Shown here: positions 1,357 to 30,260 of the stretch, piece by piece | Layout: every line of letters starts with the position of its first letter | How positions within the stretch are numbered: position 1 is the stretch's first letter | Assembly: GCA_947627515.1 (NCBI GenBank) | Contig: CANQWI010000005.1 | Span: forward strand, 1-36,053 | Reading direction: 5' to 3' | DNA length: 36,053 bases | Source of the DNA: an uncultured Clostridia bacterium | GTDB lineage: Bacteria; Bacillota; Clostridia; Christensenellales; Borkfalkiaceae | Translations under genes and position numbers: made by a program | Notes under the pieces: generated by a model | Told to the model about the DNA's origin: nothing | Database searches by the model: none | The model's input: the letters and a program-made list of their open reading frames with translations, nothing else

Positions 1357-3207
1357 ATGTATTATTACGATCCACTCGACAGGGCCTGCAAAAGCGTTTG
1401 CGGAGCCATTCCCGCCGAAGGCAGCCTGTCGTTCCACCTCTATAGCAAAGAAGAGAGCGGAGAAGCAGCATTCTCCGCTCAATCTTGTACGCTGATCCTT
1501 TGGAAAGATGGGGAAACGGCGCAGCTTTTCCCGATGAAGCGGGAGGAGGACGGCTTTTCCCTGCATCTTTGCTTTCATGAGACAGGCCTATATTTCTACC
1601 ACTTTGAGCTGGACGGCAGAAAATTCAAATGCGGCGTCCTGAGAAGGGGATGCTTCAACGACAATGCCGCCGATTGGCAGGTCACCGTCTATGATGAAGA
1701 ATACAAAACGCCCGACTGGTTCAAGGGCGGCGTCATGTATCAGATCTTTCCGGACCGCTTCTGCCGCGGCGAGGGAGCATACCCCGTTGCCGAGGGGAAA
1801 ATTTTGCGCGAGGATTGGGGCGGGCTTCCCTCCTTCCGTGCAAATGCGGATGGAAAGATCCCAAACAATGATTTTTTCGGCGGGAATCTGAACGGGGTAA
1901 GGCAAAAGCTCGGCTATCTGAAGGAGCTCGGCGTCACGGCGATCTACTTTAACCCCATTTTCGAGGCGTTCTCCAATCACCGCTACGATACGGGCGATTA
2001 TCGCAAAATCGACCGCCTTCTCGGCACGGAGCAGGAGCTTGACGATCTCATTCGGGACGCAAAAGAGCACGGCATCCGTATCATTCTCGACGGCGTCTTT
2101 AATCACACGGGCGACGACAGCCGCTATTTCAACAAATACGGCAGGTATGACAGCGTCGGGGCCTATCAATCCGAGGCCTCACCCTACGCCGATTGGTACA
2201 AATTTAAGGAGTTTCCTCGGCGATATGACTGCTGGTGGGGCATTGAGATCCTGCCCGAGGTCAACGAGACCTCGGCGTCCTATCAGGACTTTATCATGGG
2301 AAAGGACGGCGTGCTGAAGCAGTGGCTACGGCATGGGATCGGCGGCTACCGCATTGATGTTGCGGACGAGTTGCCCGATTTCTTCCTGCAAAAGCTACGT
2401 GAAAGCGTCAAGGAAGAGGATCCCGACGCCATCATTATCGGCGAGGTTTGGGAGGACGCCTCCAACAAAATTTCCTATGATGTGCGGCGAGAGTATCTGC
2501 AGGGCTACGAGCTTGACAGTGTAATGAACTACCCGTTGAAAAACGGCATCATCAACTTCATCCGCACGGGCATGACCTACCTGCTGCGCGAGACGATCGC
2601 GACCCTTCTCGACAATTATCCCAAAACCACGCTCGACAGCCTGATGAATATCCTCGGTTCGCATGACACGCCCCGCATCCTCACCGTGTTCGGAGGCGAG
2701 GACTGCACCGACAAGGAGGAGATGGCCGTGCGCTTTATGAGCGACGAGGCGCGGGCAAGAGCCAAGAAAATGCTGAAAATGGCAGCCGTTCTCCAGTTTA
2801 CGCTCCCCGGAGTGCCGTGCATCTATTACGGGGATGAGGTCGGGATGGAGGGATATCAGGATCCATTCTGCCGTAGATGCTTTCCATGGGACAATATCGA
2901 CGAGGAGCTACACGCCTTCTACCAAGCCCTCGGCCGTATCCGCGGCGGCAGTATGAAGGGAATTTTTGCGGAAGGGAATTACAGGGAGCTGTATGCCGAC
3001 ACAGCCTGCCTTTTGTATGAGAGAAGAAACGGGGACGAAAGCGTTGTTGTCTTTGTAAATCGCGGCTCCTGCAAATACACTCTGCATTTTGACGGCACGC
3101 GGCAGGAGGTTCTCACAAATGAACTTTTTACAAAGAAAATCACCGTAGAGCCGTACTCCTGCGGTATTTTAACGAAATACTATGTCTTACATAATACCTA
3201 TGTCTGA
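1357..3207 (+). CDS. GH13 alpha-glucan hydrolase (neopullulanase / cyclomaltodextrinase / maltogenic amylase type)
   Basis: 616 residues. An N-terminal beta-rich region (about 1-115) resembles the CBM34-like domain of GH13_20 enzymes. The catalytic barrel follows: YQIFPDRF, DGVFNH, GGYRIDVADE (nucleophile Asp334), IIGEVWED (acid/base Glu363) and GSHDTPR (Asp437). No signal peptide is visible, so it is probably cytoplasmic and acts on oligosaccharides alongside the upstream phosphorylase. No Shine-Dalgarno precedes the ATG; translation may be coupled to the upstream gene. The natural family end appears to be VEPYSCGIL. The last codons (YYVLHNTYV) and the stop come from a palindromic repeat at 3177-3216. 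The exact substrate cannot be fixed. Confidence 0.9.
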   Translation: MYYYDPLDRACKSVCGAIPAEGSLSFHLYSKEESGEAAFSAQSCTLILWKDGETAQLFPMKREEDGFSLHLCFHETGLYFYHFELDGRKFKCGVLRRGCFNDNAADWQVTVYDEEYKTPDWFKGGVMYQIFPDRFCRGEGAYPVAEGKILREDWGGLPSFRANADGKIPNNDFFGGNLNGVRQKLGYLKELGVTAIYFNPIFEAFSNHRYDTGDYRKIDRLLGTEQELDDLIRDAKEHGIRIILDGVFNHTGDDSRYFNKYGRYDSVGAYQSEASPYADWYKFKEFPRRYDCWWGIEILPEVNETSASYQDFIMGKDGVLKQWLRHGIGGYRIDVADELPDFFLQKLRESVKEEDPDAIIIGEVWEDASNKISYDVRREYLQGYELDSVMNYPLKNGIINFIRTGMTYLLRETIATLLDNYPKTTLDSLMNILGSHDTPRILTVFGGEDCTDKEEMAVRFMSDEARARAKKMLKMAAVLQFTLPGVPCIYYGDEVGMEGYQDPFCRRCFPWDNIDEELHAFYQALGRIRGGSMKGIFAEGNYRELYADTACLLYERRNGDESVVVFVNRGSCKYTLHFDGTRQEVLTNELFTKKITVEPYSCGILTKYYVLHNTYV

Positions 3208-3216
3208 CATAGTATT
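3177..3216 (+). repeat. Palindromic repeat element, copy 1 (long, tandem form)
   Basis: Two adjoining palindrome-like units of about 18 bases, TATGTCTTACATA and TATGTCTGACATA, with ATACTATGTC and GACATAGTAT as outer inverted ends. The second unit and its left flank match the three other copies. Here the junction reads TTACATAATAC followed by an extra C and CTATGTCTGACATA, so the open frame seen in other copies (LHSTMSDI) is shifted and ends at TGA. The element therefore provides the C-terminus and stop of the GH13 gene. Its orientation relative to the host gene is the same as at the other three sites. Confidence 0.85.
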
Positions 3217-3631
3217 TAAAATTGAAGGATATCCAAAATTTCCCGGTGAATGCTGAAATTGGGTGTAAAATGACCTGCAAAGCATATGTGTGAGAAATGC
3301 TACGGCGAATCTTGCATCGGAATGATGGAAATTGTTTTGGAAAAGCTTCGGCTAATTTTCCAAAAAAATCGTAAATACAACATCCGTCATAAAATAAAAA
3401 AAGTATTTCCGAAAAAATGCTTATCAGGGAGAATATGCAAAATACAAAAAAATCGCCCAATTTCCCCCTTTTATACCCCATAACTATTCGTAAAAGCGTG
3501 ATTTTGCGAACAGTTCTCAGTGTATCACAAACTCCTCTCTCTCAAGAGCTTGCGCGAAAATGTCTTATGGCTGTGAAAGGCTGTCGCTTTCCCCTCGGTG
3601 AGAAATTTTCATAAATCACTCTTTTACGGCA
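3217..3631. other. Non-coding stretch with one hairpin
   Basis: AT-rich intergenic region between the GH13 gene and the tyrosine recombinase. I see no credible gene. An imperfect inverted repeat at 3335-3365 (TTTTGGAAAA and TTTTCCAAAA arms around AGC-TTCG-GCT) could fold in RNA. It lacks a following run of T, so it is a weak terminator candidate at best. Confidence 0.5.
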
Positions 3632-3660
3632 TTGACATCTTCCCCGTTTTGCGTTATAAT
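3632..3660 (+). promoter_or_regulatory. Consensus sigma-A promoter of the tyrosine recombinase gene
   Basis: TTGACA at 3632-3637, a 17-base spacer, TATAAT at 3655-3660: a perfect match to the housekeeping consensus. The -10 ends only 6 bases before the ATG at 3667, so the predicted start of transcription falls on or beside the start codon and the mRNA should be leaderless. Confidence 0.85.
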
Positions 3661-3666
3661 CCAAGC

Positions 3667-4734
3667 ATGGCAAACCGTAGCGTCAACTATTATCAGGAAC
3701 GGAATTTAAAGAATCTCGAACGGATCGACGGCCTCCTCGATGAGCTTCCAGAGTACTGCGAGGATTTTTTCCGTGGCGTCGAGGAGCGTACCAGCGTTCT
3801 TACCCGTCTCAACTATGCCTATGACCTCCGTATCTTTTTTGATTTTCTCTCAAAAAAACGTTTTAAAAACAAATCTCCCAAAGAGATCACGCTTGAGGAT
3901 CTCGAGCAGGTCACGGACACAGACATCGAGATCTTTCTCTCCTATCTCTCCCGCTATACCTATGGCGGCAAGCGTCTCTCCTGCAACGAACGCGCCAAGG
4001 CGAGAAAGCTCTCCACCGTGCGTTCCCTCTTTAAATACTTCTTCAATAAGGGCCTCATCTGCGTCGATAATGCCGCCAAGGTCTCCACGCCCAAGCTTCA
4101 TGAGAAGGAGATCATTCGTCTTGACGGCAACGAGGTAAATGAGATTTTAAACACGGCAGAGTATGGAAACGGGCTTTCTCCCCATGCCTCCCACTATCAT
4201 GACCGCACGACTGTGCGGGATACGGCCATCCTGACCCTGTTTTTGGGCACGGGCATCCGTATTTCCGAGCTTGTCGGGCTCAACAATGAGAGCATCGACT
4301 TTGACAACAACTCCTTTATCGTCACGCGCAAGGGCGGGAATCAGGCCATTTTGTACTTTTCCGATGAGGTCGCAGACGCGCTCGCGGCCTATATCGAACA
4401 AAAAAAAGGCGACCCGAAGGTCCCCGATGGCTCCCCCTCCCCCCTCTTTCTCTCCATGCAATATAAGCGGATCACGGTGCGGGCGGTTGAAAATCTTGTC
4501 AAAAAATATGCCAAGATCGTCTCGCCGCTCAAAAAAATCACACCGCACAAGCTCCGCTCCACCTATGGCACCGCACTTTACAGGCAGACGCATGATATCT
4601 ACATCGTCGCAGATGTTTTGGGCCATAGAGACGTCAATACGACGCGAAAACACTATGCTGCAATCACAGAGGACAATCGCAAATCTGTTGCCGATAAGGT
4701 AAAGCTCCACCGTACCGAGGAGGACGATGAGTGA
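3667..4734 (+). CDS. Tyrosine recombinase (XerC/XerD-like)
   Basis: 355 residues from the ATG at 3667. I prefer this to the in-frame GTG at 3598 because the perfect promoter lies between them. An N-terminal SAM-like core-binding domain (about 35-135) is followed by the catalytic domain. Catalytic residues seen are Arg198 (GTGIRISEL), Lys222 (TRKGGN), His294 and Arg297 (HKLRSTYG), His320 (LGHRDVNTTRKHY) and nucleophile Tyr330. All are present, so it should be active. The stop overlaps the start of hflX by four bases. The setting beside hflX and lexA looks chromosomal, favouring a Xer-type dimer-resolution role over a phage integrase, but no dif site was recognised in the window. Confidence 0.85.
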   Translation: MANRSVNYYQERNLKNLERIDGLLDELPEYCEDFFRGVEERTSVLTRLNYAYDLRIFFDFLSKKRFKNKSPKEITLEDLEQVTDTDIEIFLSYLSRYTYGGKRLSCNERAKARKLSTVRSLFKYFFNKGLICVDNAAKVSTPKLHEKEIIRLDGNEVNEILNTAEYGNGLSPHASHYHDRTTVRDTAILTLFLGTGIRISELVGLNNESIDFDNNSFIVTRKGGNQAILYFSDEVADALAAYIEQKKGDPKVPDGSPSPLFLSMQYKRITVRAVENLVKKYAKIVSPLKKITPHKLRSTYGTALYRQTHDIYIVADVLGHRDVNTTRKHYAAITEDNRKSVADKVKLHRTEEDDE

Positions 4735-5966
4735 AGACGGCCGAAATTATCTATGTGATCCAGCCCGTTGAGGGCGAGAATGCCCGTGTTCTGCATGACG
4801 AGATCGTCTCTCTTATCGAGAGTGCGGGCGCGGAGTATGCGGGAACGATCTATCAGGGCATACGCGAGATCGATCCTGCTACCTACATCGGCAGCGGGAA
4901 GCTTTCAGAGCTTAATCAGCGGCTCGAGGGGCTCGATGTCACCGTCCTTTTCAACGGCGAGCTCTCCCCTTCCCAGACGCTCAACATCTCCAAGGCTCTT
5001 GACGGCCGCAAGGTAATCGACAGGACCACCCTGATCCTCGACATCTTTGCCCTTCGCGCCAAGAGCAACGAGGGAAAAATTCAAGTCGAGCTTGCCCAGC
5101 TCAAGTATCTCTATCCCCGTCTCAAGGGAAAGGGAGAGGCACTTTCCCGTCTTGGCGGCGGGATCGGCACGCGTGGTCCCGGGGAGACGCGGCTTGAGAC
5201 GGACAGGCGGCACATCAGAAATCGCATCCGTGCCCTTGAGGGAAGGCTCAGCGAGACGGAGAAGCGTCGCAGCCTGCAGGTCAGCCGCAGAAAAAAAGAG
5301 CAGATCAGAACGATCGCCCTTGTCGGCTATACGAATACGGGGAAATCCACCCTTCTCAACCATCTTACGGGTGCGGAGGTGCTTGTCAAGGACGCTCTCT
5401 TTGCGACGCTTGATCCCACGGCGCGGGCATTTGAGATCGAAGGCGTCCCCTTTCTCCTTGTAGATACGGTCGGATTCTTACAGAGCCTCCCCCATCATCT
5501 CATCGAGGCCTTCCGCTCCACGCTCGAAAGTGCGCTCAACTGCGACCTTGCGCTCGTCGTCTGCGACGCAAGCGGCGAATATGAAATGCAGATGAGGACG
5601 ACCCTCTCCACTCTCAACGACATGGGCTTTTCCTCTCCCTATCTTGTCGTGATGAATAAATGCGACCTCGTGGAAAACAGAGAGGCCCTTCCCAAGGACG
5701 CCGTTTGCATTTCAGCCTCGAACGACCTCGGCCTCGAGGAGCTCAAGCGCAGGATCTTTGACGCCCTGAAGGACCAATTTGTGCGGGCAGAACTCTGCAT
5801 TCCCTATGAAAAAATGGCACAGTACAGTGTCATACGCTCCCTTCTTACCGAGCAAGCCGTGGAATATACCGACGACGGTGCGATCGTCAAGGCAATCATT
5901 CCCGCATATTATGCCCAAAAATTTACTTCGTTTTCTCGGGATCTCCGTCATAATTCGGATCCATGA
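4731..5966 (+). CDS. hflX: Ribosome-associated GTPase HflX
   Basis: 411 residues with a GTG start that overlaps the stop of the preceding gene (GTGA) and a strong AGGAGG at 4719-4724. Domain order is family-typical: an N-terminal HflX domain, a basic linker with the GGGIGTRGPGE motif, then the G domain with GYTNTGKSTL (G1), DTVGFLQSLPHHL (G3) and NKCDL (G4). HflX splits stalled 70S ribosomes in related bacteria. The last 44 bases overlap the 3' end of the Cys-rich mini-gene on the opposite strand. No terminator is evident after the stop. Confidence 0.95.
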   Translation: MKTAEIIYVIQPVEGENARVLHDEIVSLIESAGAEYAGTIYQGIREIDPATYIGSGKLSELNQRLEGLDVTVLFNGELSPSQTLNISKALDGRKVIDRTTLILDIFALRAKSNEGKIQVELAQLKYLYPRLKGKGEALSRLGGGIGTRGPGETRLETDRRHIRNRIRALEGRLSETEKRRSLQVSRRKKEQIRTIALVGYTNTGKSTLLNHLTGAEVLVKDALFATLDPTARAFEIEGVPFLLVDTVGFLQSLPHHLIEAFRSTLESALNCDLALVVCDASGEYEMQMRTTLSTLNDMGFSSPYLVVMNKCDLVENREALPKDAVCISASNDLGLEELKRRIFDALKDQFVRAELCIPYEKMAQYSVIRSLLTEQAVEYTDDGAIVKAIIPAYYAQKFTSFSRDLRHNSDP

Positions 5967-6120
5967 TGATCCTGTCGATCTTGATCGTGGCATAATCCTT
6001 GATGTCGAGACATTTCCCGCAGTTGTCGCAGATCTTGTTGGGGTCAAGGTCGCAGACCATACATTCAAGACAGCCGTCGCATTCCTTTGTCTCGTCGAGA
6101 ACACACATTTTTGTTTCCAT
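5923..6120 (-). CDS. Small cysteine-rich protein, putative metal binder
   Basis: 65 residues with eight cysteines in the first half, arranged as CVLDETKECDGCLECMVCD and then CDNCGKC. The paired CxxC motifs suggest zinc or Fe-S binding, though the spacing is not that of a classic 2[4Fe-4S] ferredoxin. Similar short Cys-rich proteins next to lexA occur in other Clostridia as far as I recall, but I know of no assigned function. The 3' end runs 44 bases into hflX on the opposite strand. The ribosome binding site is weak, and Met5 is an alternative start. It is divergent from lexA, and the lexA operator lies in the shared 112-base gap, so SOS control is possible. Confidence 0.75.
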   Translation of the reverse strand: METKMCVLDETKECDGCLECMVCDLDPNKICDNCGKCLDIKDYATIKIDRIIMDPNYDGDPEKTK

Positions 6121-6176
6121 ATCTATAGTTTACCACGAAAATTCAAAAAAAGCAACAAATATTTCTCAAAACCATG

Positions 6177-6188
6177 GAACATTTGTTT
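6177..6188. promoter_or_regulatory. LexA (SOS) operator
   Basis: GAACATTTGTTT fits the Gram-positive LexA/DinR box GAAC-N4-GTTY. It overlaps the -35 of the lexA promoter, as expected for autorepression. It also lies upstream of the divergent Cys-rich mini-gene. Confidence 0.85.
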
Positions 6189-6215
6189 GCGATATTTTTT
6201 TATTTGTGCTATAAT
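6187..6215 (+). promoter_or_regulatory. lexA promoter
   Basis: TTGCGA at 6187-6192, a 17-base spacer and TATAAT at 6210-6215. An AGAGGTG ribosome binding site follows before the ATG at 6233, so this gene has an ordinary leader. Confidence 0.8.
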
Positions 6216-6232
6216 ACCTGTAGAGGTGAAGT

Positions 6233-6841
6233 ATGATAAATCAAGACAGATTGATGGAGCTCTTTGATTATGTCCGTCGGTACAATGACGAAAACGGGTT
6301 TCCCCCCTCCGTCCGCGACATCTGCGAGGCATTGAATATCAAATCTACCGCAACAGTCTACGACTATATCAACAGACTGCGGGAGCAGGGCTATCTCGAG
6401 AAGTCAGCCAAGAAAAACCGCTCCGTGACCGTTCGAGGGTGCTCCTCGGTGCGCATTCCTCTCCTCGGCGTGGTCAACGCAGGCCGGCCCATCCTCGCCG
6501 TGGAGAATAACGAGGGATATTATACCCTACCCGAGGCGGAATTCAAGGGTGATGATCTGTTTTTACTCCGTGTGCACGGCGAATCCATGATCGAAGCGGG
6601 CATTTTTGACGGAGATAAGATCATTGTCAAGCGTCAGGAGAGTGCCGAAAACGGCGAGATCGTTGTCGCCATGTTCGACGACGGGACGATGAACGGCGCT
6701 ACGGTCAAACGCTACTTCCGGAGGAACGGGAAAATCATTCTGCACCCAGAAAACAGCACAATGGAAGATATTGTTCCCGAAAATCAGGAAAGTATTAGGA
6801 TCCTCGGTAAAGTCATCGGCCTCATGCGCAGTTTTCGGTAA
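6233..6841 (+). CDS. lexA: SOS repressor LexA
   Basis: 202 residues. The N-terminal winged helix (about 1-65) has the LexA pattern PPSVRDICEALNIKSTATVYDYI. The self-cleavage site is Ala83-Gly84 (VNAGRP), and the catalytic dyad is Ser118 (HGESMIEAG) and Lys159 (ATVKRY). All parts for RecA-stimulated autocleavage are present. The operator at 6177-6188 shows autoregulation. I saw no second clear LexA box elsewhere in the window, although I could not scan systematically. Confidence 0.97.
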   Translation: MINQDRLMELFDYVRRYNDENGFPPSVRDICEALNIKSTATVYDYINRLREQGYLEKSAKKNRSVTVRGCSSVRIPLLGVVNAGRPILAVENNEGYYTLPEAEFKGDDLFLLRVHGESMIEAGIFDGDKIIVKRQESAENGEIVVAMFDDGTMNGATVKRYFRRNGKIILHPENSTMEDIVPENQESIRILGKVIGLMRSFR

Positions 6842-13719: not shown

Positions 13720-15045
13720 TCATTTCAGCGAATCGGGAAGGGCGTCAAAGCGGACAAGGTCCTCATACCGTTGCGGTCTTATGATGTATTCCGCCTTTCC
13801 CTCCCTCACAAGAACTGCAGGAGGAATGAGGTTGCGGTTGTAGTTGCTTGCCATGGAATAGTTATATGCTCCCGTCGAGAGCACGGCGACGATGTCTCCG
13901 ATGTGCGCCTCGGGAAGCTCCATATTGACGCCGATGAGATCGCCACTCTCGCAGCATTTTCCCGCCAAAGAGACTAGCTCCGTGGGCTTCTCCGCGGCGC
14001 GGTTTGCAAGAAGTGCCGTGTATTTGGACCCGTATAGGCAATATCTCGGATTGTCGAACATGCCGCCGTCGATGGCGACATATTTCCTGAGCCCCTTGAT
14101 CTCCTTGACAGCTCCCACTGTATAAAGCGTGACGCCGGCCTCCCCCACGATCGAGCGGCCGGGTTCGATGAGAAGACGCGGAAGAGGCAACTCCTTCTCC
14201 CTGCACTGCGTCCTGACGGCCTGAATGAGCGCGGAAAGATACTCCCCATATCCGTCTGCGGAGATCCTCCTGTCCTCATCGGTATACCAGATGCCGAAGC
14301 CCCCGCCCATGTTGAGCTCGGAGGGAGCAAAGCCGTATTTTAAACGCATGCTCGCTGCAAAGTCGAGCACCTTTTCGACGGCGAGCACAAAGGAGGCCTT
14401 CTCAAAGATCTGCGACCCGATATGGGAATGGTAGCCAACGAGACGGAGATGTCTCATCTTGAGAAGCGCGGAGACCATTTCCTCGGCAGAGCCGTCAAAG
14501 ACAGAAAAACCGAATTTGCTGTCAGGGGTGGCGGTCTGTACGAAGGCATGCGTGTGGGCCTCGACCCCGGGATTGATGCGGAGCATGACCCTCTGCACGA
14601 TGCCGCGCTTTTCGGCCTCCCCTTCAATGCGCTCCGCTTCGGTCAGCGAGTCGACGACGATGCACCCGACTCGATAATCAAGCGCAAGCTCTATTTCGGA
14701 GGGAAGCTTGTTGTTCCCGTGGAAATAGATCCTCTCCGCAGGGAAATTTACCTGCATGGCCGTATAAAGCTCCCCGCCCGACACGACGTCCGCGCCGATC
14801 CCTTCCTGATTTGCAATCGCATACATCGCCTTGCAGGAGAAGGCCTTGGAGGCATACAGGACGAGTCCGTTGCCCTTATATTCCCGTTGAAGGGTGTCCC
14901 GATAACTCCGCATCATCCTGCGGATCTGCGCCTCGTCAAAGACGTAGAGCGGCGTCCCGAAGCTTTTTGCAAGCTCCACACAGTCTGCGCCGCCGATCTC
15001 AAGATGTCCCTCTTGATTGATTTTAAGTGTTTCTCTTTCGTTCAT
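13720..15045 (-). CDS. lysA: Diaminopimelate decarboxylase
   Basis: 441 residues from the ATG at 15045, six bases after AGGTGA; an ATG two codons earlier sits too close to that site. It performs the last step of lysine synthesis, decarboxylating meso-diaminopimelate. Motifs seen are YASKAFS (PLP lysine), GYHSHIGSQI, the glycine-rich LNMGGGFGIWY, EPGRSIVGEAG, CCESGDLI and GAYNYSMASNYN, covering both the barrel and C-terminal domains. It stands alone between its own promoter and two terminators. Confidence 0.96.
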   Translation of the reverse strand: MNERETLKINQEGHLEIGGADCVELAKSFGTPLYVFDEAQIRRMMRSYRDTLQREYKGNGLVLYASKAFSCKAMYAIANQEGIGADVVSGGELYTAMQVNFPAERIYFHGNNKLPSEIELALDYRVGCIVVDSLTEAERIEGEAEKRGIVQRVMLRINPGVEAHTHAFVQTATPDSKFGFSVFDGSAEEMVSALLKMRHLRLVGYHSHIGSQIFEKASFVLAVEKVLDFAASMRLKYGFAPSELNMGGGFGIWYTDEDRRISADGYGEYLSALIQAVRTQCREKELPLPRLLIEPGRSIVGEAGVTLYTVGAVKEIKGLRKYVAIDGGMFDNPRYCLYGSKYTALLANRAAEKPTELVSLAGKCCESGDLIGVNMELPEAHIGDIVAVLSTGAYNYSMASNYNRNLIPPAVLVREGKAEYIIRPQRYEDLVRFDALPDSLK

Positions 15046-15065
15046 GATCATTCACCTGTTTTCAA

Positions 15066-15094
15066 ATTATATCACACCACAAATTTTTTTACAA
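15066..15094 (-). promoter_or_regulatory. lysA promoter
   Basis: Minus strand TTGTAA (15094-15089), 17 bases, TATAAT (15071-15066), directly after the dacF terminator. No obvious lysine riboswitch fits in the remaining 20-base leader. Confidence 0.75.
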
Positions 15095-15095
15095 G

Positions 15096-15133
15096 AAAAA
15101 AAGACACAATCGCCGTAAATTTGCGATTATGTC
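15096..15133 (-). terminator. dacF terminator partly built from a palindromic repeat
   Basis: On the minus strand the arms GACATAATCGC and GCGATTGTGTC (11 bp, one G-U pair) enclose a 9-base loop and precede seven T. The first six bases of the upstream arm, GACATA, are the end of the repeat element at 15127-15153. Confidence 0.85.
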
Positions 15134-15153
15134 TGACATAGTACTATGCAAAA
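15127..15153 (-). repeat. Palindromic repeat element, copy 2
   Basis: In the direction of dacF transcription it reads TTTTGCATAGTACTATG then TCAGACATAA, starting three bases after the dacF stop. It contains the overlapping palindromes CATAGTACTATG and TATGTCAGACATA. It is untranslated here but would encode LHSTMSDII; its TCA for TCT difference from copies 3 and 4 is silent (Ser). Confidence 0.9.
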
Positions 15154-15156
15154 TCG

Positions 15157-16302
15157 TCAATTCCAACTTTTCGCGGTCTCTCGGAAGGCGTCCCACCATG
15201 AATATGCGGGTGCTTCCTCGACAGCGAGCAGCCTTGTACGAGCGATCTCGATCCCGTCGAGGTACAAAACGGCCTCCCCCGCTTCCTCTCCAGTCTTCAC
15301 GGGTGCGGAGAGATTATTTACCTCAAGCTCCACACTGCATTCTCCCGATTCGCCCTTTTTCCCGAAGGCGACGAGCGGTTTTTCTGCGGTAAGCGAGACC
15401 TCCTTCTGTCTGCTCCCCTTGACAGACGCCTTCTGTCCGACCGTCTCCCCGGCCCTTATGATGACCCTGCTCTCATATCCGTTGAAGGCCTCATCGAGGT
15501 AGGAGGAGACGAGCGCATTCCTGCTCTTGGAGCTCGAAGCACCGATCACGACGCTGATGATCCGCATATCTCCGCGCTTGGCCGTCGCGGCAAGGCAGGA
15601 GCCCGCTTCGTTGGTAAAGCCCGTTTTCCCGCCGTCACAGCCTTCGTAGAAACGAATGAGCTTATTGGTATTCGTCATTTGGATGGTCCTTCCGTCGGGA
15701 TGAACAAAATCCTCCATCCAGACCTTGGTGAGCTCAAAGTACCTTTCGTGCCTTAAAAGTGCGGCAAGCATGACGGCGACATCCCTTGCACAGGAGTACT
15801 GCGGCTCCTTGGGAAGGCCCGTACAGTTCGCAAACAGCGTATTCTCCGCGCCGAGCTCCCTTGCCCGTTCGTTCATCCTGTCGATAAAGGCAAACTCGCT
15901 TCCCGCGACCCGCTCTGCGATCGCAACACAGCTGTCATTCGCCGAGCAGACTGCGATGGACTTTAAAAGTGCCTCTGCCGTGTAGGACAGCCCCGCCTCG
16001 AGAAAGACCTGCGACCCGCCCATGCTCGCCGCATTTTCACTGACCGTGATCGTTTCGTCATAGGAAAGCTCCCCCCGCTCCACAGCCTCAAAGGACAAAA
16101 GAAGGGTCATGATCTTGCACATGCTCGCGATCGGAAGCCGTTTCATCTCATCCCTCGCAGAGATCACGCTGCCCGTCTCGTATTCGCAGGTGTAGCTCGC
16201 CTTGCAGTCGGGCTCTGCCGCAGCTGCCCTGACGCCCGCCCCGCTTGAAATCGTCATAATTCCCGCCGCAAGCAACGCGGCACCGCAGATAAATTTTTTC
16301 AT
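15157..16302 (-). CDS. dacF: D-alanyl-D-alanine carboxypeptidase, DacF type
   Basis: 381 residues from the ATG at 16302 (GTG at 16308 is an alternative). A signal peptide (about 1-26, ending AAAAEP) precedes the S11 domain with SMCK (nucleophile Ser), SAND (SxN) and KTG (GGKTGFT), then a beta-rich C-terminal domain (about 270-375) ending in an aromatic amphipathic stretch (YSWWDAF) that could anchor the membrane. Cys inside the SxxK motif is less common than Thr or Met. The match to DacF, a spore-cortex peptidase, rests on position after a SpoIIM-like gene. No ribosome binding site is visible, so translation may be coupled. Confidence 0.9.
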   Translation of the reverse strand: MKKFICGAALLAAGIMTISSGAGVRAAAAEPDCKASYTCEYETGSVISARDEMKRLPIASMCKIMTLLLSFEAVERGELSYDETITVSENAASMGGSQVFLEAGLSYTAEALLKSIAVCSANDSCVAIAERVAGSEFAFIDRMNERARELGAENTLFANCTGLPKEPQYSCARDVAVMLAALLRHERYFELTKVWMEDFVHPDGRTIQMTNTNKLIRFYEGCDGGKTGFTNEAGSCLAATAKRGDMRIISVVIGASSSKSRNALVSSYLDEAFNGYESRVIIRAGETVGQKASVKGSRQKEVSLTAEKPLVAFGKKGESGECSVELEVNNLSAPVKTGEEAGEAVLYLDGIEIARTRLLAVEEAPAYSWWDAFRETAKSWN

Positions 16303-22684: not shown

Positions 22685-23458
22685 CTAAGATTGTTTCCTA
22701 TCGTAAACTGTAGAACGGAATAAAAATTCATTTTCAGAGATGTGCTCGCCGCCCTTTTTCAGAAAGACGAGATATTCGAGGTTCTTTTTCTCCCGTATCG
22801 GTGCATTGACAATGTTTTGGACTGCAAAACCGAGCCCCGAGGCAAATGCATAAAACCCGCTCAGGAGCTTCCGATGATAGCGGATGGGCAGGAGACCGGT
22901 TTTTCCGAGACCGATCCCATCGCATTCGAACTGCGGCTTGAAGAGGACAAATGCCCTGCCCTCCTCGCCAAGAATGGAAAAAATTGCCGGCAGAATTAGG
23001 CGAAGGGAAATAAAGCTCAGATCTGCCGTGACGACGTCGATTTTTTCGGGAAAGCTCTCGCCTGTCAGATATCTTGCGTTGGTCTCATCCATGACAACGA
23101 CGCGGGGATCGGAGACAAGCCTCCTGTCGAGCTGGCTTTTTCCGACATCGACACAGTATACCCTACCCGCCCCGCGCTGCAGCAGACAGTCGCAGAACCC
23201 GCCGTTGCTTGCCCCAAGGTCGGCTACAGTCGCCCCGTTTACGCTCTCACCGAAGACGGAGAGCCCCCTTTCAAGCTTAAAGCCCCCGTTGGAGACAAAG
23301 CACTGCGTCTCCTCGGGGAATTCGAAGGGCTCATCCCCCTTGATCTCATCCTTGGAGGAAACGGGTCTCCCGTGACATAAAACAAGCCCCCGCGAAAGGG
23401 CCTGCTGTGCCTTGGTACGGGAGCCGAATTTTTCCGCAAAAAATTTATCTGCCCGCAT
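22685..23458 (-). CDS. tlyA: TlyA-family rRNA (2'-O) methyltransferase
   Basis: 257 residues from the ATG at 23458, with GGGGAG upstream; a longer open frame exists but its extra N-terminus lies within dxs and is not family-like. The S4 RNA-binding domain (MRADKFFAEKFGSRTKAQQALSRG, about 1-60) precedes a FtsJ-like methyltransferase fold with VADLGASNGGFCDCLLQRGA for SAM binding, and LFKPQFE. It overlaps the dxs stop by 14 bases. Homologues methylate cytidines in 16S and 23S rRNA. Confidence 0.93.
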   Translation of the reverse strand: MRADKFFAEKFGSRTKAQQALSRGLVLCHGRPVSSKDEIKGDEPFEFPEETQCFVSNGGFKLERGLSVFGESVNGATVADLGASNGGFCDCLLQRGAGRVYCVDVGKSQLDRRLVSDPRVVVMDETNARYLTGESFPEKIDVVTADLSFISLRLILPAIFSILGEEGRAFVLFKPQFECDGIGLGKTGLLPIRYHRKLLSGFYAFASGLGFAVQNIVNAPIREKKNLEYLVFLKKGGEHISENEFLFRSTVYDRKQS

Positions 23459-25151
23459 ATTTTTTGATCTCCCCGATGATATTTTGAACGCCAAGGCCGT
23501 ATTTTTCCATGAGTGACGAGACCTCGGCATGCGGCAGGAGCTTTTCATCATACCCAAAAGAGAGCACCGTCCTTCCGCTGTTGCGATAGAACGAGGCAAT
23601 TTTCTCGCCGAGCCCCCCCGTCCGCACGTTGTCCTCGATGGTCACAATAAGAGACTCCCTGCGCGAGGAGAGAAGCTCCTCATCGAGCGGCTTTAAAAAC
23701 CTTGCATTGACGATTGAGCAATCGACATTGCATTGGGCAATAAGACCGTCGCGAACCTCCTCTGCGAGCTTCAGACAGCGTTCCCCCGCCGCAAGGATTA
23801 CTATGTCAGACATAGTACTATGTAAAACCTCGAATTTTCCAAATTCAAACGAAATGCATTCCCCCTCCGTCCCCTCTCTCGGGTAACGGATCGCAAGCGG
23901 ATGCATGTATCCGACGCTGAAAGAGAGCATTTTTCTGAATTCTGCGATATTTTTGGGGATTCCGATTGCCAAATTCGGAATAAAGGAGAGATAGGAAAGG
24001 TCAAAGATCCCCTGATGGGTCTCCCCATCCGCACCCGTCGCCCCCGCCCTGTCGATACAGAACACGACGGGAAGGTCCTGTCCGCAGACGTCATGGATGA
24101 TCTCGTCAAAAGCCCTCTGCAAAAAGGTGGAATAGATCGCATAGTACGGCTTCATTCCCTGCGACGCAAGAGACGCACAGAGCACCGAGGCATGCTCTTC
24201 GCAGATTCCCACGTCAAAGGCGCGTTCAGGGAAGGCCTCGAAGAAGCCGCGCAGGCCGAGGCTGTCTGTCATGGCCGCCGTCACGGCGACGATCCTGTCG
24301 TCCCTTCCCGCAAGTGACGTCAATTCCTCTCCGAGCGCCCGCGAATACTCCGAAGCCGTGACCTTGGGCCCCACGCCGTGCGTCTGCATGGGCGCGTTTT
24401 CGGAAAAAGGATATCCCTGCCCCTTTCTTGTGACGGTGTGCAAAAGGACGGTGCCCTTTTTCAGCTGCTCCTTCGCCGTTTCCAGTACAGGCAATAGCTC
24501 GTCGAGGTCGTTCCCGTTGACAGGCCCGAGATATCTGAGCCCGAAATGCTCTAAAAGTGCGACATCCTCAAGCGGCTTTTCAGCCTTCAGCTCCTCAAAG
24601 ACTTCATGCGCCCCGCCGACCGTGGGAGAAATTGACATCCCGTTGTCGTTGAGAATGATGAGAATACTTGTATTCAGGATCTTCAGGCTGTTCAATGCTT
24701 CATAGATGAGTCCGTTCTGAAAGGAGCCGTCTCCAACGACCGCGATCACGGAGAAGGACTCTCCCTTGAGGTCCCGCGCCTTTGCGATCCCGAGTGCGGC
24801 CGAAATTGCGGTCCCCGCATGGCCCGTGTCATAGCAGTCATATTCGCTCTCCTCGCGCTTCGGAAAGCCCGAGATCCCGCCCTCCCTGCGGAGCGTTGAA
24901 AATTTCCCCGCCCTGCCCGAGAGGAGCTTGTGCGTGTAGCACTGGTGCCCGACATCAAATATGATCTTATCTGTCGGGAAATCAAAGACGCGGTGAAGCG
25001 CGACCGTAAGTTCCACGGCTCCGAGATTGGACGAAAGATGCCCGCCGCACACGGAAACGGTCTCATAGATGGTCCTCCGTGCCTCTGCGCAGAGCGATTT
25101 CAGTTGTTCGGGGGTGAATTTTTTGAGTTCCCCCTTGATAAGATCCTTCAT
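23445..25151 (-). CDS. dxs: 1-deoxy-D-xylulose-5-phosphate synthase
   Basis: 568 residues, at the short end of the family. It joins pyruvate and glyceraldehyde-3-phosphate in the first step of the MEP isoprenoid pathway. Seen: DVGHQCYTHKLLSGR, the thiamine diphosphate motif VVGDGSFQNGLIYEALN, the pyrimidine domain with THQGIFDLSY and IRYPREGT, and the C-terminal transketolase domain. At the start of that third domain, between FEV and VILAAGE, the protein reads LHSTMSDI, encoded exactly by a palindromic repeat. Compared with remembered homologues the loop is of about normal length, so the element replaced or matched a surface linker. The gene is coupled to ispA upstream. Confidence 0.95.
   Translation of the reverse strand: MKDLIKGELKKFTPEQLKSLCAEARRTIYETVSVCGGHLSSNLGAVELTVALHRVFDFPTDKIIFDVGHQCYTHKLLSGRAGKFSTLRREGGISGFPKREESEYDCYDTGHAGTAISAALGIAKARDLKGESFSVIAVVGDGSFQNGLIYEALNSLKILNTSILIILNDNGMSISPTVGGAHEVFEELKAEKPLEDVALLEHFGLRYLGPVNGNDLDELLPVLETAKEQLKKGTVLLHTVTRKGQGYPFSENAPMQTHGVGPKVTASEYSRALGEELTSLAGRDDRIVAVTAAMTDSLGLRGFFEAFPERAFDVGICEEHASVLCASLASQGMKPYYAIYSTFLQRAFDEIIHDVCGQDLPVVFCIDRAGATGADGETHQGIFDLSYLSFIPNLAIGIPKNIAEFRKMLSFSVGYMHPLAIRYPREGTEGECISFEFGKFEVLHSTMSDIVILAAGERCLKLAEEVRDGLIAQCNVDCSIVNARFLKPLDEELLSSRRESLIVTIEDNVRTGGLGEKIASFYRNSGRTVLSFGYDEKLLPHAEVSSLMEKYGLGVQNIIGEIKKYAGR
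23799..23827 (-). repeat. Palindromic repeat element, copy 3, in frame in dxs
   Basis: In the sense direction it reads TTTTACATAGTACTATG then TCTGACATAGTA, encoding LHSTMSDIV. It differs from copy 4 by a silent TTG to TTA change and by GTA for ATA after the core. Confidence 0.9.
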
Positions 25152-25152
25152 T

Positions 25153-27250: not shown

Positions 27251-27270
27251 GTAGCTCTCCCATAGTAAGA

Positions 27271-27297: not shown

Positions 27298-27300
27298 CCG

Positions 27301-27693
27301 TCAATTATTTTTCAAGTCGTCCTGCGCGGCTTCAGGATCCGAGGAGGCCTCGGCCGCCCCTTCGCGTTGTGCTGTCTCGGGGAAAATGACACTTTGGACG
27401 TGAACATCCACCTTGGCGATTTTATATTTGGTCATGGATTCGACCATCTGCTTGATATTCTGCTGAATGCGGTAGGCGAGCTCGGGGACCTTGTTGCCGT
27501 AGTGGGCAATGACTGAGATGTCAACAAAGATGCCCTCCTTCTCAAAGCAGAGCTTGATGCCCTTGCTCTTGGAGGGAACGAGCTCGATCCCCTCTGTCTC
27601 CTGCAGGCTCAGCACGACGATCCCGCTCACGATGTCGGAATTGTAGGTGATCTTGCCCTTCTGACCGTTCGGATTATATTTGATGCTTGCCAT
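27301..27693 (-). CDS. Asp23/Gls24-family envelope stress protein
   Basis: 130 residues. The core (about 10-108) matches Asp23/DUF322: GKITYNSDIVSGIVVLSLQETEGI, FVDISVIAHYGNKVPELAYRIQQNIKQMVESMT and VDVHVQSVIF. The acidic C-terminal tail is low complexity. It is the counterpart of Bacillus YqhY, which sits beside nusB and has been linked to fatty-acid synthesis control; here accB and accC are absent. AAAGGAG and a promoter precede it. Confidence 0.93.
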   Translation of the reverse strand: MASIKYNPNGQKGKITYNSDIVSGIVVLSLQETEGIELVPSKSKGIKLCFEKEGIFVDISVIAHYGNKVPELAYRIQQNIKQMVESMTKYKIAKVDVHVQSVIFPETAQREGAAEASSDPEAAQDDLKNN

Positions 27694-27712
27694 AATATCT
27701 CCTTTGGAGTCT

Positions 27713-27741
27713 ATTATAGCACATCTTTTTGGATTTTACCA
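27713..27741 (-). promoter_or_regulatory. Candidate promoter of the asp23-nusB-folD-ispA-dxs-tlyA operon
   Basis: Minus strand TGGTAA (27741-27736), 17 bases, TATAAT (27718-27713). The -10 is perfect and the -35 weak. The -35 lies just inside the gap after the spoIIIAH stop. Confidence 0.55.
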
Positions 27742-27751
27742 CTGTTTTTTC

Positions 27752-28237
27752 TTAACTTTCTGCGTAAACAGGCATAATTATTACATTTCCGTTGCGAACA
27801 TTGTACTCGATCTCGAGTGCGTAGAAAATCTTGGTGATGTTGTCCTCGGTGAGCTCGTTGGAATTGACAAAGACGTTGATGTTGTTGGCGTCCGTGATGG
27901 TGACCGCGGCGTCGGAGAAGCCGATTGCCTTGACGATGGATTCCAGCACAAGCTCATCCTCCATGAGCGAAACAAGCTCCTGCTTTCTCTCGACGGCACT
28001 CGTATACTCTGCGGTGTCCTTTGCGTAGGTCGCAATGATGCTGTCAAGCTGGACGAGCTCCTCGCTGCGTGTGGAACTGCGGGTATCCCTGTAGGTCGTG
28101 AAATAGGTCGCTTTGACGGTCGCACTGCCGTCGACGGGAGTGTTCCGTGTGCCAGCGAGCACAAAGTTGACGACAGCGACGACGGCGAGAAGCAGGACAA
28201 GCGTGGACATGATGGCGATTTTTTTGGTGTTGGACAT
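27752..28237 (-). CDS. spoIIIAH: Stage III sporulation protein AH
   Basis: 161 residues. One N-terminal transmembrane helix (about 8-28, IMSTLVLLLAVVAVVNFVLA) is followed by a helical linker with the family pattern ARSEELVQLDSII-like (RSTRSEELVQLDSI) and a YscJ-like domain (about 90-155, DAAVTITDANNINVFVNS). SpoIIIAH sits in the mother-cell membrane and pairs with forespore SpoIIQ to form the feeding channel. AAGGAG precedes the ATG. Confidence 0.92.
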   Translation of the reverse strand: MSNTKKIAIMSTLVLLLAVVAVVNFVLAGTRNTPVDGSATVKATYFTTYRDTRSSTRSEELVQLDSIIATYAKDTAEYTSAVERKQELVSLMEDELVLESIVKAIGFSDAAVTITDANNINVFVNSNELTEDNITKIFYALEIEYNVRNGNVIIMPVYAES

Positions 28238-28270
28238 GGTTTTATCTCCTTATTACAATAGATTCCGATA

Positions 28271-28615
28271 TCAGCCTGCGGGATACACCCGAATATTCCG
28301 CGTCCCGAGGGAGAGCGCGGTGGCGGCGACCTCCATGAGGCGGGTCCTTGTCAGGATCCCGTCCTCTCCCTCAAAGATCACGACGGCACTCACGGGGACC
28401 CCGTTTTGCTTTGAGATCATCACGGTCGCCGATTTGACACCATCGATTTCGCTCAGGAGGACGCTGAGACGTTTTTCCTCCTCCGTCGCGGTGTATGCCG
28501 TGGGTTTATCCTGACGGAAAAAGACAAAATAGACGAGGATCAACAGCAAAAGTGCCGCGGCCCCGATGAGGACGATACGCGCTGTCTTGTTTTTAAAAAG
28601 CTCCTTGAGTCTCAT
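28271..28615 (-). CDS. spoIIIAG: Stage III sporulation protein AG
   Basis: 114 residues, about half the Bacillus length. A transmembrane helix (about 14-34, IVLIGAAALLLLILVYFVFF) precedes a compact ring-building motif domain (LLSEIDGVKSATVMIS, ILTRTRLMEVAATAL, NIRVYP). The usual long linker and extra beta-triangle insertion are missing. SpoIIIAG forms a large oligomeric ring between mother cell and forespore, so the short form may build a simpler ring. It overlaps spoIIIAF by four bases. Confidence 0.9.
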   Translation of the reverse strand: MRLKELFKNKTARIVLIGAAALLLLILVYFVFFRQDKPTAYTATEEEKRLSVLLSEIDGVKSATVMISKQNGVPVSAVVIFEGEDGILTRTRLMEVAATALSLGTRNIRVYPAG

Positions 28616-29064
28616 GTGACCTCCGTCTTACAGCCGTACCGCTCCCCGATCTCCCGCCCGATCGCAGACAATATATCTATATGAGTCTCTTCCCCGTTTA
28701 TTCCGAAATCGGTGACGTGAACGATGATTTTTTCATAGGAAAAATCGTCGAAGGAGCGCGAAACCTCCACCTCGGCCTCGACGCCGAACCTGCTTTTCAG
28801 AAGGCACCCGACCTCCTCCACATCCTCGCGAGAGAGTAGCTTGGAATAGGCCGCAAGATAGCTCTCATCCGTATCGAGCTCTGCGCTCGGGAGAAGCGTC
28901 TTAGGATCCCTTGCAAACCTGACAAAGGGCGTGATGAGCACGACAAAAATGAAGAGACGGGTCATCCCCTTGACGAATTTTCCCATCCTGCCGCTCGGGG
29001 CGATGATGGAGATCACTGCAGAAATGAGAACAATGCCTGCAATGCTCAGAACATACCCCTTCAT
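28612..29064 (-). CDS. spoIIIAF: Stage III sporulation protein AF
   Basis: 150 residues from the ATG at 29064, which shares one base with the spoIIIAE stop (TGATG); the longer ATG at 29088 is less likely. Two transmembrane helices (about 4-24 and 33-52) precede a cytoplasmic RBM-like domain with the amphiphilic strands VEAEVEVSRSF and KIIVHVTDFG. It belongs to the SpoIIIA-SpoIIQ complex. Confidence 0.9.
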   Translation of the reverse strand: MKGYVLSIAGIVLISAVISIIAPSGRMGKFVKGMTRLFIFVVLITPFVRFARDPKTLLPSAELDTDESYLAAYSKLLSREDVEEVGCLLKSRFGVEAEVEVSRSFDDFSYEKIIVHVTDFGINGEETHIDILSAIGREIGERYGCKTEVT

Positions 29065-30260
29065 CAGAAAAATACCCCCGTCGAGCATACGAGCAGAAGG
29101 ATTGAGAGAAAATACAGGAAGGCGATGCAGAGGAGCCCGGCGAGAAAATATCCCGTATCCCCCGCAAGACGGGACAAAAATCCCGAGATCTTCCCCCCGA
29201 CAGGCTCCGTTGCGGCCGCCGAGAGCCTTAAAAACAGCTGAAAGACCGCAAATAAGAGGACGGGTCGGAGGATCGTCCCGAAGAGAAGAAAAACGGAGAA
29301 GGAGCCAAGAGCATTTTTGATGAGAGAACTGCCCGCAACGACGAGCTCGACGCCGCCCGACAAAAACCCACCGACCAAAGGCACGGAGCCCGAGATCACA
29401 TACTTTGCAGCCTTCAGAGAGATCCCGTCATACTGGGCCGCGGCAATGCCCTGCACCGTCAAAAAGACGGAAAATACCCCCAATATCAGCCCGATGAGCC
29501 ATTTATTGACGCTTTTGAAGAGCTCTCCAAGCCTTTCTGTCCGCACATCCTCGGAGAGATTACCGACAAAGGCAAGAACGATCACGACGATCGAGGTCGG
29601 GATCACGAGGGAGGTAAAGAGCTGTGTGACCCCCCCGCTCATGAAGGCAACGGCGGGACGGTAGATGCCGACGGAGACGGCTCCCCCGCTTGCGGCCATC
29701 AGCGTAAGAAGGAGCGGGTAGACAAGCTCCATCTGCCTTTGCATAGAGGTGATCGCCGAAAATCCCGCATCCAGCACGCTGATGAGGCATGCGAGCACCG
29801 TTGCTCCCACGGAAATGTATCCGACAAAGTGTATTATGTCAGACATAGTACTATGCAAAAGGTCACTTTTCGCAGAATTCAACACCCCACAGAGGATCGT
29901 CACGGCCAAAATAACTGCAAAGGCGGGAAGTAATATTTTCCCCTGCTCCCAAACGAGCGACAGGACCGCACTCGTCAGCGAGCTGTAATCGAGGGAAAAA
30001 TCCCCCGTGATCAGGCTTCTGAGCTTGTCCTTGACGGAGACGCCGCGGAAGGCCGTGAGTGTGTCGAGATACTCCTGCAGCTCCTTCGTGTCGAGGGAAT
30101 CGATGAGCTCCCTGATGTTGTCCTGAAGCTCCTCCCTTGCTGTGGACTCTGCAGACGCATCTGCCCTTCTGTAGCCCCCCATTGAGAGGAAAAGAAGGAG
30201 CAGCATCATCCCAAGAAGGATGAGAAGCACTTTTTTTCTCTTGGACTGTACACTCCTCAT
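29064..30260 (-). CDS. spoIIIAE: Stage III sporulation protein AE
   Basis: 398 residues from the ATG at 30260, which overlaps the spoIIIAD stop by four bases. A signal-like segment (LLILLGMMLLLLFLSMGG) is followed by an extracytoplasmic helical part and six or seven membrane helices, ending LVCSTGVFF. It is a multi-pass membrane component of the SpoIIIA channel. In the segment after the second main helix (LAVTILCGVLNSAKSD) the protein reads LHSTMSDI, supplied in frame by the palindromic repeat at 29832-29860, before FVGYISVGATVLACL. From memory, homologues have a loop of similar length here. Confidence 0.93.
   Translation of the reverse strand: MRSVQSKRKKVLLILLGMMLLLLFLSMGGYRRADASAESTAREELQDNIRELIDSLDTKELQEYLDTLTAFRGVSVKDKLRSLITGDFSLDYSSLTSAVLSLVWEQGKILLPAFAVILAVTILCGVLNSAKSDLLHSTMSDIIHFVGYISVGATVLACLISVLDAGFSAITSMQRQMELVYPLLLTLMAASGGAVSVGIYRPAVAFMSGGVTQLFTSLVIPTSIVVIVLAFVGNLSEDVRTERLGELFKSVNKWLIGLILGVFSVFLTVQGIAAAQYDGISLKAAKYVISGSVPLVGGFLSGGVELVVAGSSLIKNALGSFSVFLLFGTILRPVLLFAVFQLFLRLSAAATEPVGGKISGFLSRLAGDTGYFLAGLLCIAFLYFLSILLLVCSTGVFF
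29832..29860 (-). repeat. Palindromic repeat element, copy 4, in frame in spoIIIAE
   Basis: In the sense direction it reads TTTTGCATAGTACTATG then TCTGACATAATA, encoding LHSTMSDII. The core is the same as copy 3 except for silent TTG versus TTA. Confidence 0.9.

Follow-up and report, generated by a model that had tools for sequence, protein, structure and literature searches.

Architecture-imparting polar sequences such as KOPS, together with parS and matS, are dispersed along bacterial chromosomes and strand-polar, with some copies lying within genes, and the Rickettsia palindromic elements are palindromes of which some copies lie within reading frames, in one frame. Uptake sequences (DUS/USS) number in the hundreds, with an orientation bias by gene end and reading frame, according to the accessible part of PMC2346458. 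For the E. coli DNA gyrase, the accessible part of PMC6379681 describes a motif with a ~36-bp centre and two ~47-bp arms of ~10.75-bp phased G/C, symmetric about a cut with a 4-bp stagger, and reports that BIME-2 elements are enriched in gyrase cleavage sites. Enrichment of gyrase downstream of transcription units is described in the available portions of PMC6379681 and PMC12393610, and is judged in the former not to be hard-wired.

Here we describe a family of short palindromic sites in the Borkfalkiaceae, starting from a 36,053-nt stretch of DNA from an uncultured Clostridia bacterium (contig CANQWI010000005.1), referred to below as the window.

Sites in the window

All four places listed in a first-pass annotation of this DNA are present in the window. 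A weight matrix scores three of them as strong copies and the fourth as a degenerate double copy, and gives no match in the reversed window. The sequence CATAGTACTATG occurs exactly three times, with no further occurrences at up to two mismatches (100 shuffles of the window, two mismatches allowed: mean 0.28, maximum 2). The site at 15125..15153 (minus strand, 43.7 bits) is intergenic, with the stop of a D-Ala-D-Ala carboxypeptidase gene just upstream and a PLP decarboxylase gene beyond; a simple scan of 14900-15400 found no terminator. The example flanking stretch 15054..15214 extends 80 bp either way from the central W of this site at 15134, an extent that we infer for the single copy from the family-level ~10.5-bp A/T phasing. 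The two other strong copies both read LHSTMSDI and lie in dxs (23799..23827, minus strand, 41.3 bits; host gene 23445..25151, minus strand, identified by Pfam and PDB relatives) and in spoIIIAE (29832..29860, minus strand, 44.6 bits; host gene 29064..30347, minus strand, identified by Pfam), the latter having a flanking gene in common with five other site loci. The fourth place, 3168..3224, covers the 3' end and stop of a GH13 gene (assigned by Pfam) and consists of two overlapping inverted copies (3168-3196, plus strand, 21.4 bits; 3196-3224, minus strand, 9.4 bits); it is therefore a damaged double site. Beside it lie genes for a single tyrosine recombinase, for an HflX-like GTPase (named from its Pfam domains) and for LexA, and their reading as a recombinase trio was rejected.

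Distribution among genomes

The assembly to which the window belongs (1.53 Mb, 71% complete) contains 15 exact CATAGTACTATG places and, when two mismatches to the 16-mer are tolerated, ~30 places (control 0), and G087, a genome of another genus, contains 69 sites in 609 kb, or about one per 9 kb (reversed control 0). The copy number, which the first-pass annotation had proposed to compare with a shuffled-genome expectation, thus strongly exceeds that of the controls, and the family is far larger than the four copies noted there. The repeat is present in each of the 61 sampled genomes of the genus, and named relatives among the matches listed include Ca. Borkfalkia and Ca. Gallimonas. Genera g1, g5, g8, g10 and g11 bear sites. 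Genera g7, g6, g2 and g9 have no or almost no sites, and a search for an alternative core in 277 kb of G066, from a site-poor genus, gave no strong one. In other families, G226 (f27) has one matrix match in 400 kb and G364 (f30) has three, one of them strong, in 288 kb; the CATATCGA arrays of G226 are a different repeat. The first 400 kb of G121, scanned for replication polarity at the starting threshold, gave one match against two in the reversed control, and its site listing was disregarded as its iterated matrix drifted (861 matches, 753 in the control).

At least 118 stretches were matched in relatives, of which the 80 listed (83 sites) were used for the analyses of placement, phasing, tracts, polarity and flanking genes, and the remaining 38 (39 sites, 20 of them flank-dissimilar) were reserved as a held-out phasing check. 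Reduction by flank similarity leaves 61 of the 83 sites, and 52 of the 79 that are long enough. Flanking genes are shared with sites among the 83 listed from relatives by 17 of the 23 own sites. The sharing of site positions across genera is not significant (9/14 versus 9/28, p 0.096).

The core and its in-gene copies

The core is a ~29-bp palindrome centred on a base (W), to which the phase symmetry of the flanks fits to within ~1 base, and it holds ~34 bits of information (G087 matrix). Its half-sites, RCATARTA, are ordered > < >, and the core is therefore polar. The frame TTG CAT AGT ACT ATG TCW GAC ATA is the sole stop-free sense frame, as the first-pass annotation had noted. In G087, counted from codon phases, the 13 in-gene sites in sense orientation are divided between that frame (8) and another (5). 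Frame use thus looks like a consequence of where stop codons are absent, and not like the tuning for tolerance as protein that the annotation had further suggested.

In-gene copies are known in dxs, spoIIIAE and miaA. The dxs copy is retained at the DNA level: within the genus it can be recognised in 29 of the 30 dxs genes compared (30 genomes with loci; 59/61 genomes had a dxs match), with excess synonymous conservation across the 30. The gene that lacks it (L069) encodes a protein of unchanged length. In DXS, LHSTMSDI takes the place of native residues with a length difference of ~1 residue (three alignments shown, 32 sequences matched), and comparison with solved DXS proteins reveals no long insertion at the site.

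Helically phased A/T flanks

New here is the arrangement of the flanks, in which A/T tracts around the 29-bp core are phased at ~10.5 bp, symmetrically about the central W. In each of four site sets the phasing, with arms on both sides of the centre as in gyrase-type sites, is clear in either direction out to ~55 bp; by 80-90 bp it is fading. Among the 52 de-duplicated sites its amplitude is 0.25 (left) and 0.21 (right) at 13-53 bp, and 0.13 and 0.07 at 54-94 bp, against a control mean of ~0.03. Near-window amplitudes are 0.19 and 0.18 in the own genome (23 sites), 0.32 and 0.18 in G087 (52 sites), and 0.26 and 0.16 in the 20 held-out flank-dissimilar sites (control maxima 0.13 and 0.11). In the far window, both arms are phased only in the first set; for the own genome, for G087 and for the held-out sites, the left arm equals or slightly exceeds the control maximum and the right arm does not rise above control level. 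Modulo 10.5, the peaks lie 5.5-6.2 bp away from the dyad. The phased tracts consist of AA/TT runs, at 0.45 in the peaks and 0.12 in the troughs, and contain few TA steps. Per-site phase scores in G087 are positive in 39/40, 10/10 and 11/12 sites of three location classes; the wider collection of 234 site phase scores includes weak matches and orthologues. The spacings within nine close same-orientation site pairs correspond to whole turns (R 0.88, with the period fitted afterwards and eleven 17-bp pairs, in which the core is read on both strands, excluded), and the seven pairs of at least 15 bits give R 0.86.

Placement and strand polarity

Sites are mostly intergenic, near 3' ends and in convergent gaps, and rarely occupy divergent gaps. 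Gene calls for placement came from a custom simple caller rather than a standard gene finder. In G087, 50 of 68 sites are intergenic, compared with 14% non-coding DNA, which is the extragenic, 3'-end location of REP/BIME type, though 18/68 lie in called genes. The 48 convergent gaps of this genome hold 11 sites and the 47 divergent gaps hold three; the other two sets, which were chosen around sites, have none in 10 and none in 30 divergent gaps. Placement in the locus set leaves out 13 edge sites and keeps orthologues (dxs many times), so that the pooled orientation counts of this placement analysis, and the pooled p values, are inflated; G087 alone is the unbiased set.

Within convergent gaps, 26 of 29 sites lie on the local majority strand (8 kb), or 25 of 29 with larger G087 radii. 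The majority strand is followed in G087 by 11/11 sites at an 8-kb radius and 10/11 at 15 and 30 kb, and by 15/18 in the genus loci and own stretches. For host genes a stricter class scheme was used, since convergent gaps made the looser one ambiguous. Where the host gene opposes the local majority, the few cases available show the site following its host in 3/5 (8 and 15 kb) or 3/6 (30 kb) in G087, and in 2/3 in the genus loci and own stretches. The uniform orientation relative to the touched gene, claimed from the four copies, thus holds in the window and is elsewhere a bias, with no rule. GC skew in G087 gives no clear replication direction, and gene strand is our one guide to replication polarity.

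Proposed function and alternative readings

Taken together, the sites look like fixed chromosome-handling sites and not like a jumping element. Our preferred reading, held tentatively, is a DNA-wrapping site that handles chromosome topology or architecture, with gyrase as its most likely reader. The core would sit at the dyad of ~110-160 bp of DNA, with A/T tracts facing one side at each helical turn, and this phasing would let the DNA wrap round a core-bound protein. Such sites could be strong gyrase sites hard-wired into the chromosome, dealing with positive supercoils in front of replication and where genes end, much as has been suggested for BIME-2 in E. coli. Gyrase is the leading candidate because the E. 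coli motif has the same layout as these sites, and we regard it, taken on its own, as a possible reader, with somewhat less assurance than wrapping in general. Several observations speak against it: sites are absent or nearly so from g7, g6, g2 and g9, although gyrase is, to our knowledge, to be expected in every bacterium; the dyad of the core falls on a base, whereas gyrase cuts with a 4-bp stagger; the far right arm stays at control level in three of the four site sets; and the downstream enrichment in E. coli is judged not to be hard-wired (PMC6379681). The ~34-bit core is, moreover, far above the degenerate E. coli gyrase motif, which suggests either that another, sequence-specific protein is the reader or that a drive is at work.

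The first of these is the strongest competitor, although still rather doubtful: the site would be bound by a nucleoid or segregation protein, sequence-specific and so far undescribed, which itself wraps or bends DNA, and the polar core of the site would orient a translocase or loader along the chromosome in a KOPS- or parS-like role. A binding site of this sort had been offered in the first-pass annotation as its second choice, and the phased flanks, the polarity and the avoidance of divergent gaps now favour it. It agrees with the high core information, with the tracking of the local majority strand in convergent gaps, where adjacent transcription gives no preference, and with a patchy genus distribution that fits gain and loss of a dedicated protein; against it stand the lack of a candidate protein in our searches, the uninformative GC skew and a handful of host-following cases that are too few to be decisive. 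Lrp/AsnC was ruled out, PF01037 not being found in the site-bearing G086, G029, G044, G123 and G121; the domain is found in the site-bearing G033 and G132 and also where sites are few or absent, in both g6, all six g7 and 4/6 g9 genomes searched. CodY, considered because of a similarity at the central TCWGA, was ruled out by its presence in 0/41 genomes. A drive could take the form of an uptake signal sequence, for which site-bearing DNA is preferred and transformation spreads and maintains near-consensus copies. We consider this unlikely: ComEC, the sole uptake gene searched, is found in 61/61 genomes and the ~34-bit core of ~200 sites (extrapolated) would exceed the need of binding alone, but genera poor in sites or lacking them have ComEC just as regularly, the strand polarity seen in convergent gaps would not be expected, and we know of no uptake sequence with symmetric phasing on both sides.

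More improbable still is that the site serves a conventional transcription factor as its operator or acts in RNA as a 3'-end element. The core is palindromic, some sites lie just upstream of genes, such as one that we take from its start to be thrS, and a second hairpin is marginally above shuffles (83.1% versus 81.7% of cells; covariation score reached by 7/500). Against this reading, divergent gaps are nearly empty, the regulators Lrp and CodY are ruled out, the window has no Rfam match, and RNA leaves the helical phasing unexplained; the central hairpin is no better than shuffles (77.8% of cells paired versus 77.7%), and an RNA hairpin is therefore disfavoured. The first-pass annotation had preferred a mobile or spreading element tolerated as protein, in the manner of the Rickettsia palindromic elements. 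A mobile palindromic element of this, REP/RAYT or MITE type, inserting into genes and read through, we now consider very improbable despite the numerous near-identical palindromic copies, of which those in genes frequently have one frame open. The lack of a long insertion in DXS, the synonymous retention in dxs, the equal length of the site-free L069 protein (1/30) and the flanking genes held in common by 17/23 own sites argue against mobility, and viral contigs contain no exact 21-mer. A RAYT/TnpA-REP transposase, also put forward for checking, was rejected as a necessary mobiliser: Y1_Tnp (PF01797) is found in 27/61 genomes, including the site-bearing G033, G123, G069 and G087, but was not found in the near-complete, site-bearing G086, G029, G044, G132, G067 and G121.

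If gyrase reads the sites, this lineage would have hard-wired gyrase sites near gene ends, unlike E. coli as portrayed in the accessible part of PMC6379681, and direct tests become possible of how site strength positions supercoiling. If another protein reads them, a gut clade with few cultured members would have a DNA-wrapping chromosome system not described before. The specific version of the latter, with ~200 sequence-defined, strand-polar, nucleosome-like wrapping sites per chromosome read by a dedicated protein, is on balance doubtful; if true, it would amount to a hard-wired architecture system whose sites have the strength to dictate codons in housekeeping genes, dxs, spoIIIAE and miaA among them. 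On either reading, a DNA site appears, in many species, to shape the amino-acid sequence at fixed places in housekeeping proteins.

Comparison with known systems

Like the Rickettsia palindromic elements, the sites are palindromic with some in-gene copies in one frame, but here native residues are replaced, with no long insertion at the tested gene (DXS), and flanking genes are common to different species. With DUS/USS, as covered in the accessible part of PMC2346458, they share hundreds of copies (extrapolated here) and an orientation bias by gene end and reading frame, and differ in their longer core, symmetric phased flanks and strand polarity, an uptake role being putative. REP/BIME-2 of enterobacteria are likewise many short palindromes, mostly intergenic near 3' ends; here, however, some site-bearing genomes are Y1-less, there is little sign of mobility, the flanks are phased, and copies lie in dxs, spoIIIAE and miaA. 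As in KOPS, parS and matS, the sites are dispersed and strand-polar with some copies inside genes, whereas the 29-bp core with phased flanks is particular to them and their replication polarity is read from gene strand. Strong gyrase sites and the E. coli motif (Mu SGS, pSC101; available portion of PMC6379681) share the ~36-bp centre, the phased symmetric G/C-A/T arms and the association with regions downstream of genes; the sites described here, where gyrase binding is putative, differ in having a conserved ~34-bit palindrome, many near-identical copies and a base at the dyad.

Copies of the core and evidence against mobility

All four places at which the first-pass annotation had put copies of the palindromic core in the window are occupied. 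Three are core sites on the minus strand, at 15125..15153 (weight matrix 43.7 bits), 23799..23827 (in dxs, 41.3 bits) and 29832..29860 (in spoIIIAE, 44.6 bits), while the copy in the GH13 gene (3168..3224) is a degenerate overlapping pair (21.4 and 9.4 bits) and not one intact core. This degenerate copy is adjoined by a tyrosine recombinase, an HflX-like GTPase and LexA in a row (window 3598-6841). The 12-bp palindrome CATAGTACTATG has three exact matches in the window (shuffles of the window, scored with a tolerance of two mismatches, average 0.28) and occurs at 15 places in its own 1.53-Mb, 71%-complete assembly. There, the proposed excess over a control is borne out by the 16-mer TATGTCNGACATAGTA (≤2 mismatches), with 27 forward and 28 reverse matches, many of them one palindrome read twice, and none for its reversed control.

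The repeat had been proposed to be a mobile element tolerated as protein (LHSTMSDI), in the manner of Rickettsia palindromic elements, and several results speak against this. When DXS is aligned with solved DXS enzymes, LHSTMSDI occupies the place of native residues (length differs by ~1 residue). Of 30 dxs genes compared within the genus, the window's among them, 29 keep a recognisable core; in the dxs of locus L069 the core is absent and protein length is unchanged. For 17 of the 23 own sites, flanking genes recur beside sites in a set of 83 from relatives, a test of common neighbours and not of exact position (two of the 17 are in one cluster). The RAYT/Y1 transposases suggested as mobilising enzymes were not found in several near-complete genomes that bear sites. 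Synonymous codon identity at nine scorable site codons is 0.30 higher than at other dxs codons for the same amino acids, and both windows over the site rank top two of 381 in a synonymous conservation scan of the gene. MiaA also contains HSTMSDI. Sharing of site positions across genera (9/14 vs 9/28) is suggestive only.

Abundance and distribution

In 609 kb of genome G087 (genus g10), 69 sites score at least 8 bits, against none in the reversed sequence, and the count is almost flat across thresholds from 6 to 20 bits. The density of one site per 8.8 kb extrapolates to ~200 sites per genome. The core in G087 is TTTTGCATAGTACTATGYSNSRCATARTA, carries ~34 bits (G087 matrix) and varies at its centre (GTCWGAC, GCGTGAC, GTGTGAC, GTCACAC, GTCACGC and others). 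At C7:37359 and C1:185045 (contig:position) the gene that follows apparently takes its start codon from the core (ATG TCW GAC), the proteins starting MSDK according to a simple in-house gene caller. The same 609 kb (C1, C2, C3 and C7) contains a strongly repeated unit resembling a CRISPR array, with many 12-mers present ~112 times (e.g. ATTTCAATCCAC).

With at most one mismatch, the element is present in 61/61 sampled genomes of its own genus and in 89/151 of the family (14/18 genera). Counts are high in genera g1, g5, g8, g10 and g11, lower in g3, and zero or almost zero in g2, g6, g7, g9, g13 and g16. The exact 21-mer occurs in Ca. Borkfalkia faecigallinarum and Ca. Gallimonas gallistercoris, among the at least 118 stretches listed, and has no match in the viral contigs searched; these names suggest that the family is Borkfalkiaceae. 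A sequence-only model, scoring up to 20 candidates in each genome of the order, matches 68/297 of these; most matches beyond the family are weak. In the class it matches 6/343, all six from the own family. In 277 kb of G066 (g7), neither a 12-bit site nor another obvious core was found; CGAACTTAAAAA-type words are mildly over-represented there. Contig C1 of G121 (g8) is nearly without sites over 1-400000 on a first pass and has matches at 548-819 kb; regional clustering is possible in this genus. Hairpin-like units in clusters, linked by CATATCGA (57 copies in 400 kb; reversed word, 1), are a different repeat family in G226 (family f27).

In a library with few subscription journals, no published account of the element was found in titles and abstract openings on Christensenellales palindromic repeats, Borkfalkia/Gallimonas/Borkfalkiaceae (12 of 42 papers), and Clostridia REP and gyrase; the string CATAGTACTATG matched one unrelated paper, on oat.

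Placement and orientation

Intergenic DNA holds 50 of 68 sites in G087, where non-coding DNA is 14%. By gap type there are 11 sites in 48 convergent, 36 in 261 co-directional and 3 in 47 divergent gaps (convergent vs divergent, Fisher p 0.04). In sets chosen around sites, convergent and divergent gaps hold 2/15 and 0/10 (own genome) and 19/56 and 0/30 (genus loci). The element is oriented with the genes in 29/36 co-directional gaps and 13/18 in-gene sites of G087 (p 0.10 for the latter); pooling three sets, with orthologues kept in, gives 57/68 and 64/77. In convergent gaps, where adjacent transcription sets no preference, the local majority strand is followed in 11/11 sites of G087 (10/11 at larger radii) and 15/18 in the genus and own sets. 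Polarity may therefore belong to replication, but the majority strand is a proxy only, and the stronger operon could be what sets polarity; GC skew in G087 is uninformative on replication direction.

Helically phased flanks

A new feature of the element is its phased flanks. When rows are aligned at the central W, A/T content is seen to oscillate about every 10.5 bp to either side of the core; peaks lie at distances of ~17, 27, 37, 48, 58 and 69 bp from this dyad, and the pattern fades after ~80-90 bp. In the first set the near window (13-53 bp) has amplitudes of 0.25 on the left and 0.21 on the right, and the far window (54-94 bp) 0.13 and 0.07; randomly shifted rows give ~0.03. The near window repeats this in the same phase in the own genome (23 sites; 0.19 and 0.18), G087 (52 sites; 0.32 and 0.18) and 20 held-out sites with flanks unlike any earlier site (0.26 and 0.16; control maxima 0.13 and 0.11). 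In the far window, the left arm reaches 0.11, 0.10 and 0.11, near or just above control maxima, and the right arm is at control level in these three sets. Phasing is therefore secure over ~110 bp and may extend to ~160 bp; in the far window left exceeds right in 4/4 sets. Phase scores in G087 are positive for 39/40, 10/10 and 11/12 sites, intergenic and in-gene sites agreeing. Nine same-orientation site pairs are spaced by whole turns (R 0.88, with the period fitted post hoc).

Candidate readers of the site

An RNA hairpin reading is disfavoured, and Lrp/AsnC and CodY are excluded as readers: Lrp/AsnC was not found in several site-bearing genomes, and CodY in none of the 41 searched. An uptake signal sequence is possible: ComEC is present in 61/61 genomes, and one report (PMC2346458) describes for uptake sequences the gene-end and frame-orientation bias that the element has, but neither symmetric phasing nor strand polarity is expected of such a signal. 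A putative nucleoid or segregation protein that wraps the DNA, the alternative raised by the first-pass annotation, remains nearly as likely a reader as gyrase.

Our preferred inference is a wrapped chromosome site that handles DNA topology, its most likely reader being gyrase. Against gyrase stand the high core information, sister genera nearly without the element, a base at the dyad and a weak far right arm. The gyrase motif of E. coli is symmetric and spans 130 bp (PMC6379681): a centre of 36 bp lies between two arms of 47 bp with G/C content phased at 10.75 bp, a pattern attributed to DNA wrapping round the C-terminal domains of GyrA. Gyrase cleavage sites concentrate downstream of transcription units and within BIME-2 (PMC6379681; PMC12393610). 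The element matches this layout and has a conserved core besides.
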